The position numbers were made by a program, and so were the translations under genes. From positions 5,270,001 to 5,334,000 of the forward strand of contig NZ_JAUSVA010000002.1 of assembly GCF_030813695.1 (NCBI RefSeq): a stretch of 64,000 nucleotides of DNA, given 5' to 3'. Numbering within the stretch: position 1 is the first letter of the stretch; each line of letters opens with the position of its first letter. Below are positions 34,782 through 38,273 of this stretch, one piece after another. This DNA is from Kitasatospora herbaricolor. Lineage in GTDB: Bacteria; Actinomycetota; Actinomycetes; Streptomycetales; Streptomycetaceae. The notes beneath the pieces were generated by a model that ran no database searches, had not been told where the DNA came from, and saw only the letters and a list, made by a program, of their open reading frames with translations.

Positions 34782-35987
34782 TCACCCCACCGGAACGGGC
34801 CGCGTGAGCACCGGCGCGGGCGCCGGCCGGAACCAGCCCCGGGCGCCGAACAGCAGCAGCCCGCCGAGCCCGATCCCGCCGACGGCGCAGAGCGCGACCG
34901 CGCGCAGCGAGGTGTCCACCAGTGCCCCCGAGACCGCGTAGCCGAGCGCGTTGCCGGTCGCGAACAGGGTGATCAGCCAGGCGAAGGCCTCGGTGACCGT
35001 GCCGGCCGGCGCCAGTTCGGCGATCAGCACGAAGGCGGCCGCCAGCAGGGGGGCCAGCCCGATGCCGGAGAGCAGCGCCAGCGCGCAGAACGCCGCCGGG
35101 CCGGGGAGCAGCAGCAGCGGCAGGTAGGCGGCGGCCATCCCGAGGGCCATCACCCAGGTCCGGGTGGCGGTGCCGCTGCGCCACTTGACCGCGCCGTACA
35201 CCAGCGCGCCGGCCAGCCCGCCGACGGCGGCCAGGGCGAGCAGCGTGCCCGCGCCGCCGGGGACGCCGCTGTGCTGCTCGGCGTAGGCGATGAAGAGCAC
35301 GTTCTGCGAGCCGACCGTCCAGCCGGCGCCGGCCAGGCCGATCAGCAGCAGCACCAGGCCGGGCGAGCGCAGCGGGCCCAGCAGCCCGGCGGACTGCGCG
35401 CGCGGCGGGGCCTGCCAGGCGCGGGCGGGTGCGGCGGTGGCGACCACCAGGGCGCCGGCCAGGCCGAGTCCGGCGGCCGTCCACAGCGCGGTGACGGGGC
35501 TGAAGGCGGCGGCGATGCCGGCCACCGCGAGCGGTCCGGCGACGTAGAGGATCTGCTGGGCGGCGGAGTCGAAGGCGTACGCGGTGTCCAGCTGCTCCTC
35601 CTCGACCACGGCGGGCCACAGGGCGCGCAGGCAGGGCTCCAGCGGGGGCATGGCGAGACCGGCGACGGCGGCGCCGACGGTGGCGGCGACGGGCGAGCCC
35701 GGGGCGAGGGCGAGCAGGGCGTACCCGAGCCCGGCGACCACGGCCGCGCTGAGCAGTACCCGGGGCTGGCCGGTGCGGTCGACGATCCGGCCGAGGACGG
35801 GCCCGCCGACGGCGGCGGCGATCGCGTACGCGGCGGTGGCCAGGCCGATCCGTCCGTACGGGGCGCCGGCGTCACGCAGGGCGAGGGCGATCACGAGGGC
35901 GGTCATGCCGGCCGGGAGGCGCCCGAGCAGGGTGCCGAGCAGGAGTCGGGTGACGTGCGGGGCACGGAGCAGGGCGAGGTAGCCCAT
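34782..35987 (-). CDS. MFS exporter-like transporter
   Basis: ATG 35987 is chosen over the upstream TTG 36032 because a promoter and palindrome at 36034-36060 would place the transcription start near 36027, and GGAGA precedes this ATG. The 401-residue product has 12 hydrophobic segments with loop 2-3 GRIVDRTGQPR, typical of a drug-exporter-like MFS family. The C-terminus ends in Pro/Val. The substrate is unknown. The palindrome over the -10 suggests tight repression by an unlinked regulator. Confidence 0.85.
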   Translation of the reverse strand: MGYLALLRAPHVTRLLLGTLLGRLPAGMTALVIALALRDAGAPYGRIGLATAAYAIAAAVGGPVLGRIVDRTGQPRVLLSAAVVAGLGYALLALAPGSPVAATVGAAVAGLAMPPLEPCLRALWPAVVEEEQLDTAYAFDSAAQQILYVAGPLAVAGIAAAFSPVTALWTAAGLGLAGALVVATAAPARAWQAPPRAQSAGLLGPLRSPGLVLLLIGLAGAGWTVGSQNVLFIAYAEQHSGVPGGAGTLLALAAVGGLAGALVYGAVKWRSGTATRTWVMALGMAAAYLPLLLLPGPAAFCALALLSGIGLAPLLAAAFVLIAELAPAGTVTEAFAWLITLFATGNALGYAVSGALVDTSLRAVALCAVGGIGLGGLLLFGARGWFRPAPAPVLTRPVPVG

Positions 35988-36033
35988 GGGGGCGGGTCTC
36001 CGGTGGGCAGGGGGCGGGAGGACGGTACTCAAA

Positions 36034-36060
36034 GTTATACGTATAACCGGACGGGGTCAA
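36034..36060 (-). promoter_or_regulatory. promoter with a perfect 14-bp operator for the MFS gene
   Basis: GTTATACGTATAAC (36034-36047) is a perfect palindrome. On the reverse strand it contains TATAAC (36039-36034) as a near-consensus -10, with TTGACC (36060-36055) as -35 at a short 15-nt spacing. A repressor bound here would block RNA polymerase. Confidence 0.65.
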
Positions 36061-36110
36061 TCGAGCCGTCGGGGGCGGATGTGATGGGGCGTCAGCTTGG
36101 TTCGTGCCCG

Positions 36111-36157
36111 CATCTCAAACATGTGCTTTGAACATCTCAAAGCTTTACTGCTAATGT
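36111..36157 (+). promoter_or_regulatory. promoter with direct and inverted repeats ahead of the leader ORF
   Basis: TTGAAC (36128-36133), an 18-nt spacer and TAATGT (36152-36157) make a good vegetative-type promoter ending seven bases before ATG 36165, which fits a leaderless transcript. CATCTCAAA is repeated at 36111 and 36133 (22-bp period). CTTTGA-N5-TCAAAG (36126-36142) is an inverted repeat over the -35. Confidence 0.6.
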
Positions 36158-36164
36158 TCCGCTC

Positions 36165-36281
36165 ATGACCACCACAGGCGCACCCCGAATGCAGGGCCAG
36201 GGCTCGACGCCCGCGGCCGGCATGCGCCTGTCCGGTGCTGTGGACGGCCCGCGCGCCTGTCGCGCCGGCAGCTGTATCTAG
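36165..36281 (+). CDS. candidate 38-residue leader peptide with two C-terminal Cys (TGT) codons
   Basis: ATG 36165 sits seven bases after a good -10 and encodes 38 residues ending RACRAGSCI. Both Cys codons are TGT, rare in this genome. The stop TAG (36279-36281) overlaps the first bases of a 10-bp stem whose partner lies at 36326-36335. The symporter gene begins 104 bp downstream. A later in-frame ATG would leave the last 19 residues. This is the geometry of a translation-dependent attenuator. Family databases were not searched, and a chance ORF is possible. Confidence 0.45.
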   Translation: MTTTGAPRMQGQGSTPAAGMRLSGAVDGPRACRAGSCI

Positions 36282-36335
36282 GCGGCACGCCCCGAGGCAC
36301 CTCCCCCGAGGTGCCGGATCCGCGCCGTGCCGCCT
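36280..36335 (+). promoter_or_regulatory. nested hairpins between the leader ORF and the symporter gene
   Basis: An outer 10-bp stem pairs AGGCGGCACG (36280-36289) with CGTGCCGCCT (36326-36335). Inside it an 8-bp hairpin pairs GGCACCTC (36296-36303) with GAGGTGCC (36308-36315) around four C. The 5' arm of the outer stem starts in the leader stop codon, so a ribosome there would open the outer stem but not the inner one. Confidence 0.55.
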
Positions 36336-36385
36336 CCCCGTCTCCCCTCCCCGTTCCGCACTCCCTCCCCCGGAGCCGCACCGCC

Positions 36386-37729
36386 ATGTCCGCAGCGCCC
36401 GACGCCACCGCGTCGCCCTCCCTGCTCACCCGGGTCCGGAAGACCCCCTTCTGGGTCCAGATCGTCGCCGGCCTCGTGCTCGGCGTCGCCCTCGGCTACC
36501 TCGCCCGGACCGCCGACATCTCCTGGCTGGCCACCACCCTGGAGACCATCGGCAAGATCTTCGTCCAGCTGCTCAAGCTGGCCGTCCCGCCGCTGGTCTT
36601 CACCGCGATCGTGGTGAGCGTCGCCAACCTGCGCAACGTCACCAACGCCGCCCGGCTGGCCGGCCGGACCCTGCTCTGGTTCCTGATCACCTCGCTGATC
36701 GCCGTCGCGATCGGCCTGGGCCTGGGCCTGCTCACCAACCCCGGCCAGGGCACCGACCTCTCCACCGAGGGGCTGAAGGCACCCAAGTCCTCCGGCACCT
36801 GGGTCGACTTCCTGACCGGCATCATCCCGACCAACATCGTCACCTCGTTCACCGAGGTGAACGTCCTGCAGATCGTCTTCCTGGCGGTCGTGGTCGGCGC
36901 CGCGATCATCAAGCTCGGCGACAAGGCCGCCCCGGTCCTCAAGCTCAACGAGACCGTCCTGGAGCTCACCCAGACCGCCCTGTGGTGGGTCATCCGGCTC
37001 TCCCCGCTCGGCACCCTCGGCCTGATCGGCAAGTCCGTCGCCAAGTACGGCTGGGACCTGCTGGAGCCCTTCGCCACCCTCACCGCGGACGTCTACGTCG
37101 GCTGCGCCCTGGTGCTGTTCGTGGTCTACTCCCTGCTCCTGAAGTTCGTCGGCGGCCTCAACCCGCTCAACTTCTTCAAGGGCGCCTGGCCCGCCATCCA
37201 GCTGGCCTTCGTCTCGCGCTCCTCGGTCGGCACCCTGCCGGTCACCCGCCGCGTCACCGAGCGCCTCGGCGTCCCGAGCGACTACGCCAGCTTCGCCGTC
37301 CCGTTCGGGGCCACCACCAAGATGGACGGCTGCGCCGCGATCTACCCCTCGCTGGCCGCGATCTTCGTCGCCCAGGTCTACGGCGTCCACCTCGGCATCG
37401 GTGACTACCTGCTGATCGCCTTCGTCTCGGTGATCGGCTCCGCCGCCACCGCCGGTCTGACCGGCGCCATCGTGATGCTGACCCTGACCCTCTCCACCTT
37501 GGGCCTGCCCCTGGAGGGCGTCGGTCTGCTGCTGGCCATCGACCCGATCCTGGACATGGTGCGCACCGCCACCAACGTGGCCGGGCAGGCGGTCGTGCCG
37601 ATCCTGGTGGCGGCCCGCGAGAAGACCCTCGACCTGGTGGCCTACAACAACCCGACGGGTGACCTGTACGCCGAGGCGCCGGTCCCCGTGCCGGCCCAGG
37701 CCGGCGAGAAGGTGCCCGCCGCGGCCTGA
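36386..37729 (+). CDS. DAACS-family cation:dicarboxylate/amino-acid symporter
   Basis: ATG 36386 is chosen since the upstream GTG 36311 lies in a hairpin and adds a Pro/Ser tail. The 447-residue protein has about eight membrane helices plus re-entrant loops: KTPFWVQIVAGLVLGVALGY at the start, SRSSVGTLPVT for hairpin 1, PFGATTKMDGCAAIYPSL for the NMDG region, and DPILDMVRTATNVAGQAVV at the end. In the last motif the Arg-Thr that recognises acidic substrates is kept, but the usual final Asp is Gln. Substrates of the family are glutamate, aspartate, C4-dicarboxylates or cystine. The Cys-containing leader peptide upstream would favour cystine, which is inference. Confidence 0.9.
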   Translation: MSAAPDATASPSLLTRVRKTPFWVQIVAGLVLGVALGYLARTADISWLATTLETIGKIFVQLLKLAVPPLVFTAIVVSVANLRNVTNAARLAGRTLLWFLITSLIAVAIGLGLGLLTNPGQGTDLSTEGLKAPKSSGTWVDFLTGIIPTNIVTSFTEVNVLQIVFLAVVVGAAIIKLGDKAAPVLKLNETVLELTQTALWWVIRLSPLGTLGLIGKSVAKYGWDLLEPFATLTADVYVGCALVLFVVYSLLLKFVGGLNPLNFFKGAWPAIQLAFVSRSSVGTLPVTRRVTERLGVPSDYASFAVPFGATTKMDGCAAIYPSLAAIFVAQVYGVHLGIGDYLLIAFVSVIGSAATAGLTGAIVMLTLTLSTLGLPLEGVGLLLAIDPILDMVRTATNVAGQAVVPILVAAREKTLDLVAYNNPTGDLYAEAPVPVPAQAGEKVPAAA

Positions 37730-37750
37730 CCACCCCGGCCCCGCCCGCGA

Positions 37751-37796
37751 CAGCCCGCGAGCCCGCTCCCCCGACGGGGAGCGGGCTCGCGGGCTG
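37751..37796 (+). terminator. 21-bp perfect hairpin terminator of the symporter gene
   Basis: 37751-37771 pairs perfectly with 37776-37796 around a CGAC loop, 21 bases after the stop codon. Confidence 0.85.
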
Positions 37797-37837
37797 CTGC
37801 CGGCCGGAGCGGTTCGCCCGCCGCCGGACACGAGGCA

Positions 37838-37872
37838 GGGGGCCCGCCGCGTCCAGGACGTGGCGAGCCCCC
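37838..37872. terminator. long imperfect hairpin, probable terminator on the cold-shock side
   Basis: GGGGGC at 37838 pairs with GCCCCC at 37867, with CGCC/GGCG and CGT/ACG continuing the stem; one mismatch and one G-T pair interrupt it. It lies between the symporter terminator and the cold-shock gene end. A small 6-bp hairpin GGACCC/GGGTCC (37922-37937) lies closer to the cold-shock stop codon. Confidence 0.6.
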
Positions 37873-37964
37873 TTGGGTGCTGCTCGTTGTGCTCATGGTG
37901 GCGGCAGTGAGGGCCACCGTCGGACCCAGTCGGGTCCCGAGCGATCAGAACATCATGAGGATGG

Positions 37965-38168
37965 TCAGATAGCGGTGACGTTCTCCGCCTGCGGGCCCTT
38001 CGGGCCCTGGGTGACGTCGAAGCTGACCGCCTGGTTCTCCTCCAGCGAGCGGAAACCGTTCGCGTTGATGGCGGAGTAGTGGACGAAGACGTCGGGGCCG
38101 CCGCCCTCCTGGGCGATGAAGCCGAAGCCCTTCTCAGCGTTGAACCACTTGACGGTTCCCTGAGCCAT
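37965..38168 (-). CDS. CspA-family cold-shock protein
   Basis: The 67-residue single-domain OB-fold protein has RNP1 KGFGFI and RNP2 VFVHYSAI, with the family start [16 protein letters not shown]. It binds single-stranded RNA/DNA and acts as an RNA chaperone. The length and all aromatic contact residues fit the family. ATG 38168 is preceded by AAGGAGAACGGC. Its leader contains a strong stem-loop with T-tracts at 38274-38317, unusual in this GC-rich genome, so transcription may be attenuated or temperature-responsive. It is divergent from mqnA. Confidence 0.96.
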
Positions 38169-38273
38169 GCCGTTCTCCTTGCGAGGGACGTATTGGGTGC
38201 CACACCGCGTGGCACCCGGTCCGCTGCGCTGATCGCCCCGCCTCCGGAGTGGGTCCGGAGTTTTTCGATATTG

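Follow-up and report, generated by a model that had tools for sequence, protein, structure and literature searches.

We propose that a short segment of the Kitasatospora herbaricolor genome, lying directly ahead of a gene for a DAACS symporter, is a ribosome-mediated attenuator that responds to cysteine. The segment lies in a stretch of 64,000 nucleotides (nt; NCBI RefSeq assembly GCF_030813695.1, contig NZ_JAUSVA010000002.1, positions 5,270,001 to 5,334,000 of the forward strand), which we call the window and within which all coordinates below are counted. From the window sequence and its comparison with relatives we put the probability of this reading at roughly 0.78. An original prediction, made from the letters of the window alone, had suggested a possible Cys-responsive attenuator at this place, and it is supported by the conservation of a leader open reading frame (ORF), of its Cys codons, of their spacing and of an outer stem, by Cys-type leaders in 94 of 98 loci outside the genus, and by the TcyP-like motifs of the symporter. 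What that prediction had observed is real and far beyond chance.

All elements of the segment are on the plus strand. The leader ORF has 38 codons (36165 to 36281), reads MTTTGAPRMQGQGSTPAAGMRLSGAVDGPRACRAGSCI up to its stop and ends, as had been claimed, in RACRAGSCI with two rare TGT codons, the penultimate Cys codon at 36258 to 36260 and the last one, our proposed sensor, at 36273 to 36275. Its TAG stop falls within a 10-bp stem whose 5' arm (AGGCGGCACG) occupies 36280 to 36289 and pairs with the 3' arm (CGTGCCGCCT) at 36326 to 36335. The ATG of the symporter gene (36386 to 37729) stands 50 nt beyond this outer stem, again as first described, and is preceded by a Shine-Dalgarno GGAG, read directly at 36372 to 36375, and by a C-rich and G-poor spacer at 36336 to 36371 that may serve as a Rho-loading stretch. 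The segment from 36270 to 36345 folds at -36.2 kcal/mol compared with -25.7 +/- 2.7 for shuffled sequences (n=200; z -3.9), and no Rfam family matched at E<=1 between 35900 and 37000, so that a riboswitch or other known RNA family was rejected. The promoter that had been placed seven bases before the ORF stood in part. A -10-like element, TAATGT (36152 to 36157), does end 7 nt 5' of the leader ATG, which would imply a leaderless transcript, and all but one of 63 distinct Kitasatospora loci have TAnnnT, the -10 consensus of S. lividans (PMC8079986), at that place, but a sigma-70 scan of 35400 to 38200 returned no promoters.

These 63 loci, on which the reading chiefly rests, comprise 55 and a further eight (of twelve added, three were duplicates, L228, L233 and L237, and one, L235, had no symporter start; L001, near-identical to the window, was dropped from the distinct set). 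The last Cys codon is TGT in every one of them, and it is followed in every one by 5 nt and then by the GGCG of the 5' arm. The penultimate Cys codon is TGT in 56/63, and the frame, whose length differs between distinct relatives, stays open and closes at, or just past, the Cys codons, with TGA in 50 loci and TAG in 13. A 9-bp core of the stem is fully paired in 61 of the 63. Among the 55 loci, all have a 9-bp partner for the 5' arm, compared with 96 of 2750 dinucleotide shuffles, and at three of the nine stem pairs both partners have changed, L061 showing an independent change from C-G to U-A. The distance from TGT to arm is constant throughout the 63 loci, both in ORFs that end ahead of the arm and in those that continue through it, and we regard this constancy as the strongest sign that the hairpin reads the position of the ribosome. 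GGAG lies within the 20 nt upstream of the called symporter start in 63/63, a count to be read knowing that GGAG also served in calling the starts. The loop, by contrast, varies in sequence and in length, from 36 to 69 nt, and therefore the 8-bp inner stem (36296 to 36303 with 36308 to 36315), which is seen in the fold of the window, is particular to its lineage. Of the nested stems first described, then, both are present in the window but only the outer one is shared with relatives; likewise the conservation check that the prediction had called for found the ORF, the terminal Cys codons, the 5-nt spacing and the outer stem kept and the inner stem not.

The leader is common in the genus. With the 38-residue peptide as query, 34 of 100 relatives gave a match; 33 of these matches are the leader, and the remaining one (L025 in G071) was rejected since it lies inside a long frame unrelated to it. 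A profile built from 20 leader sequences matched 52 of 70 Kitasatospora genomes; in the wider family it matched 53 of 297, that is the same 52 and a single genome (G318) in which the match falls inside an unrelated frame of 763 codons and was rejected as a symporter leader, the true leader there being read in L080. In 51 of the 52 genomes the symporter comes next after the leader, and in the other (G035) the contig ends. Of the 18 genomes missed by the profile, 13 have a symporter ortholog preceded by a short ORF that ends in Cys, often as SCRVPSCS, four have no close symporter ortholog, and in one (G055) a remnant resembling the leader stands before a broken symporter. Taken together, the 51 of 52 and the make-up of these 18 genomes indicate that leader and symporter occur together in the genus. 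Named records with the same gene are mostly from Kitasatospora, the nearest being K. indigofera. In G055 the symporter is split (L081, L086) and the remnant lies upstream, while extra symporter fragments were seen in G054 (L079) and G106 (L077).

It might be argued that the peptide itself matters beyond its Cys codons, either as a product or by arresting the nascent chain. Such a role would fit the retention of GAVDxPRRCR in the leaders of many species, as well as the constant distance of seven codons between DL and the sensor Cys in the leaders of family NF042934 (see below); we nevertheless consider it improbable, since a subgroup of Kitasatospora without GAVD retains the TGT, the spacing and the stem, and since the AARP tail is missing where the stop precedes the arm. 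This tail is found in many relatives, whose leaders run through the 5' arm to end in SCIxAARP or CRAMSCIxAARP, while the TAG of the window stops five codons earlier; the exact length of 38 codons is thus atypical. A peptide-level role of AARP was rejected, for its codons are the 5' arm and stay untranslated where the stop comes first, and its conservation is explained by constraint on the RNA, those codons forming the stem. In-frame insertions, often adding Cys units such as MSCTDLSC, were found in the leaders of L019, L020, L024, L052, L060, L124, L227 and L229, with the last TGT and the 5-nt spacing unchanged in all of them.

Outside the genus, the symporter was found at E<=1e-100 in 82 of the 121 genomes sampled from the genus of G318, which is Streptomyces to judge by its leaders and named relatives. 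From this sample and from named records, which include Actinacidiphila, Embleya, Mangrovactinospora, Microbispora, Planotetraspora, Spongiactinospora and Solirubrobacter, we collected 98 symporter loci of less than 78% identity, and 94 of them (91 distinct) have upstream a known type of Cys leader, LHVDL..C, typically written RLHVDLCRCMSAVCCR. The leader of one Streptomyces ortholog (L080) scores 31.5 bits against NF042934, a 'putative leader peptide' model of the type cis_reg_atten (cut-off 27), and below the cut-off of the mycobacterial Ms4527A model of Cys-rich leaders. The window leader, and likewise that of one Kitasatospora relative, matched no NCBIfam family at E<=1, NF042934 and Ms4527A included; failing NF042934, the window leader is to be regarded as a variant. 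In 57 of 90 loci of other genera there is a stem of 9 bp whose 5' arm lies immediately upstream of the sensor, compared with 99 of 900 simple shuffles, and this suggests that their layout is related but different.

A search of the window's own genome with NF042934 gave nine leaders above the cut-off, with weaker matches behind them. The genes downstream were scanned for eight of the nine (not L209) and for the weaker L211 and L212 with Pfam and L213 and L216 with NCBIfam; they include those for sulfite/nitrite reductase, ThiS-like, rhodanese, alkanesulfonate monooxygenase-like, SsuE, NMT1/SsuA-like binding, cysteine dioxygenase and carbonic anhydrase-like proteins. Genes with no obvious sulfur role, found after L206 (NF042934) or after the below-cut-off L211, L212, L213 and L216, are carbonic anhydrase-like, GST-like, 2OG oxygenase, acyl-CoA dehydrogenase-like and peptide/nickel-binding protein-like, and the acyl-CoA dehydrogenase-like gene has a below-cut-off match to SfnB, of sulfur acquisition. 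These surroundings also bear on whether the leader could sense something other than cysteine, such as another amino acid, a drug or the general speed of translation. The leaders do hold Arg, Ala and Pro as well, and control of whiB7 through ribosome stalling on an upstream ORF is known (PMC13236596). Against this, the terminal Cys is retained across divergent leaders, LHVDL-type Cys leaders stand at the orthologous positions, and the leaders of the family in the genome itself, among those scanned, are mostly followed by genes of sulfur or cysteine metabolism. A signal other than cysteine is therefore very unlikely in our view.

The choice of Cys codon is itself informative. In the 55 distinct Kitasatospora loci the last Cys is TGT in 55/55 and the penultimate in 49/55, compared with 12 of 86 for all other Cys codons of the leaders. 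TGT makes up 10 of 134 Cys codons in 34 ORFs of the window (ORFs that were chosen by base composition), none of 113 in the Kitasatospora symporter genes and six of 200 in those from elsewhere. The same holds for the family in other genera, where the Cys seven codons from DL (DL+7) is TGT in 90 of 91 symporter leaders, L096 being the sole exception; elsewhere in these leaders TGT accounts for 8/89 at DL+0 and 5/54 at DL+8, and DL+2 is mixed, with 47 TGT and 27 TGC. The DL+7 codon is TGT in 11/11 leaders of the window's genome that have Cys there (12 examined, L211 having no Cys at DL+7), in 23/23 leaders from four other genomes (27 loci, of which L241, L242, L243 and L253 fall outside the motif pattern) and in 29/29 leaders of a class-wide sample (the 30 best loci, L271 being unread), compared with 24 of 161 Cys codons in the ORFs neighbouring the leader loci of the last two sets. 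The tallies overlap, orthologous leaders having been counted more than once (four of the 23 are symporter leaders, and L245 and L246 are identical to L197 and L152 of the earlier set), and the counts are thus not independent; the sample also leans towards strong matches to the protein model, a model blind to codons.

Codon bias in leaders has been explained by the selective charging of isoacceptors (PMC1183508), as in attenuators of the trp and his type. The present genome gave four tRNA-Cys calls (three distinct genes, one doubtful; 63 loci covering its 75 tRNA places), all with anticodon GCA, and with two codons and one anticodon isoacceptor charging cannot explain TGT. We are somewhat inclined to believe that Cys leaders throughout the Actinomycetes use the identity of the codon, with one fixed UGU as the sensor, read by G-U wobble and presumably more slowly, and with the first Cys mostly UGC, so that UGU would mark where the ribosome is to stall and would set its stop relative to the RNA downstream. 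Such a rule for the sensor codon was not found described in the literature searched, which was represented by excerpts and did not cover Canestrari et al. 2020.

The symporter itself matches PF00375 with 364.6 bits (gathering cut-off 27.9); its sequence identity is 32% with E. coli TcyP, 31% with GltP and 28% with DctA. It shares with E. coli TcyP the motifs SRSS and GCAxxYP, both absent from DctA and GltP, and its GCAxxYP segment has one residue more than in those two proteins. The window protein reads SRSS and DGCAAIYP, E. coli TcyP, the sole TcyP reference protein used, SRSS and QNGCAGLYP. All 153 distinct orthologs have SRSS, and 144 of them have KMDGCA[AS]IYP, the other nine being outside the pattern. 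Both the SRSS and GCAxxYP segments would, as in GltPh, bear on the cargo, which from these motifs is likely to be cystine or cysteine. That the gene would instead encode a carrier of C4-dicarboxylates or of glutamate/aspartate, with only an indirect link to cysteine, we consider unlikely. The best NCBIfam models for the protein are DctA and GltP, both below their cut-offs, the nearest solved structure is labelled an aspartate transporter, and ILDMxRT is as in GltP, though E. coli TcyP too has IDMGRT; SRSS and GCAxxYP, however, side with TcyP, and nine paralogous loci (eight in the genus and one in Streptomyces) read NLDGT instead. In KMDG the symporter has a Lys at the place of the Asn of DctA, GltP and the paralogs (NLDG) and of the Gly of E. 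coli TcyP (GQNG). This segment presumably lies near the ion sites of GltPh, and the coupling ion of the symporter may differ. In E. coli, YdjN/TcyP imports cystine, and ydjN has been proposed as a member of the Cys regulon (PMC4383340).

How the attenuator might work can be proposed as follows. A ribosome would start at the very 5' end of the transcript and, when Cys-tRNA is low, would halt with the last TGT in its A site. As a rule of thumb, the ribosome reaches about 12 nt ahead of the A-site codon; its leading edge would then mask the first half of the 5' arm, so that the hairpin could not form and the symporter would be expressed. With ample cysteine the ribosome would go on to the stop codon and leave, the hairpin would form and expression would be cut. 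An occlusion of 26 nt by the ribosome was used in PMC13236596. In folding models of the Kitasatospora loci the hairpin has a mean probability of 0.96 when the 5' arm is free. We consider it probable that the hairpin is the off state. As to what the hairpin does, we prefer, tentatively, a pause, possibly together with Rho, followed by premature termination in the C-rich spacer, over a block of the ribosome-binding site, since there is no U-tract and the spacer is rich in C (65% C and 12.6% G over the 55 loci); action by termination we would place just short of an even chance.

Masking of the Shine-Dalgarno sequence is an alternative to termination. In such translational attenuation, of the kind reported for mycobacterial polycysteine ORFs, the 3' arm (GUGC...CUCC), either freed or paired, would govern access to GGAG...GCAC. 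In the window CGTGCCGCCTCC is partly complementary to GGAGCCGCAC, some of the leader pairs with the GGAG region in consensus folds, the Streptomyces consensus fold pairs an upstream stretch with GGAGTGTG, and masking of this kind has been described for cysteine genes of M. smegmatis (PMC13236596), translational control having been reported for mycobacteria (PMC9031893, PMC13236596). On the other hand, the GCAC part is variable among species, and when equilibrium folds were modelled for a ribosome at the last TGT, at 18 nt before it or at the stop, and for no ribosome at all (with similar placements for the other genera), access showed no consistent change between states. We therefore keep masking only as a rival, possible but somewhat doubtful.

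Several observations weigh against the cysteine-responsive attenuator as proposed, or against parts of it. The modelled access to the ribosome site, stalled versus free, changes by a mean of +0.02 in Kitasatospora, where it rises in 9 and falls in 5 of 55 loci, and of +0.03 in the other genera, where it rises in 17 and falls in 7 of 90, and no terminator-like site with a U-run was found between 35400 and 38200. Two loci carry one A-C mismatch in the core stem, and a group of nine sequences with compensatory changes shares a single shifted register and is probably largely one lineage. Four of the 98 loci outside the genus (L111, L171, L184 and L201, the last from Solirubrobacter) have no LHVDL-type leader, some leaders of the family in the genome itself stand before genes with no obvious sulfur role, and the overall identity of the symporter to TcyP is about the same as that to GltP. 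The A-C mismatch arises from GGCGACACG in the 5' arm of L230 and L236, which are natural variants of the stem.

The proposed element can be set beside several known systems. Canestrari et al. 2020 reportedly described polycysteine leaderless short ORFs in mycobacteria. Such ORFs are also the subject of PMC9031893, PMC9094748 and PMC13236596, and the window leader resembles them in having Cys codons in a leaderless-type ORF that precedes a gene linked, here putatively, to the supply of cysteine, and in that the proposed sensor is the speed of the ribosome on Cys codons. It differs from them in that its two Cys codons are spaced and form no run, in its target, a DAACS symporter, and in a conserved hairpin at a fixed distance from the last TGT. 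With the NF042934 leaders it shares its position before an orthologous symporter, in Streptomyces and others, a short ORF with Cys codons near its end and TGT as the sensor Cys, but the two Kitasatospora leaders tested neither matched the model nor have the LHVDL motif. The window leader would work in the manner of the mycobacterial Cys leaders and stands in the place that leaders of the NF042934 type take in other genera, but on the model test its sequence falls outside that family. As in attenuators of the trp and his type (PMC1183508), a ribosome stalled at regulatory codons would decide the structure of the RNA, and as in those of the trp type a conserved hairpin adjoins the regulatory codon (spacing 63/63, core 61/63); unlike in either, the region searched holds no U-run terminator. 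The symporter belongs with TcyP/YdjN in the DAACS family and shares its SRSS and GCAxxYP motifs, but its control is proposed to be by a leader and not by CysB. Leader peptides with Cys codons had been predicted for Mycobacterium, Propionibacterium and Bifidobacterium in 2005 (PMC1262725), while none of the eight leader peptides of S. lividans listed in the excerpt of PMC8079986 is assigned to cysteine. The S. lividans leader metL, which precedes metNIQ and is described in that paper by its Met and Thr, ends in RCMCRRMCAF with three Cys codons, and it could be a cysteine sensor.

A second layer of control, through a protein, is possible at the promoter. A putative operator repeat, CTCAAA-N-CTTTGA-N-CTCAAA, lies at 36114 to 36141 on the plus strand and overlaps the -35 region. 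A looser form of it stands ahead of 62/63 Kitasatospora leaders and 22/90 leaders of other genera. A regulon for the repeat was rejected, since the exact pattern has one site in the 9.58-Mb genome. In two of the loci outside the genus (L171, L184) a repeat like CAAAG/CTTTG apparently stands directly before the symporter, and these are natural alleles without a leader. Further upstream, between a divergent MFS gene on the minus strand and the symporter leader, a perfect palindrome (GTTATACGTATAAC, 36034 to 36047), also seen upstream in the Kitasatospora loci L007, L019, L020 and L065, would seem to be an operator for that MFS gene.

The finding puts the DAACS symporter found in Kitasatospora and Streptomyces under the probable control of a cysteine leader, with the prediction that this protein imports cystine or cysteine. 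Since the Kitasatospora leader has lost the peptide motif of the family and kept the sensor codon, the parts that matter would be the last TGT and how far it lies from the hairpin. The rule for TGT, if it holds, is simple and can be tested at the level of single codons.

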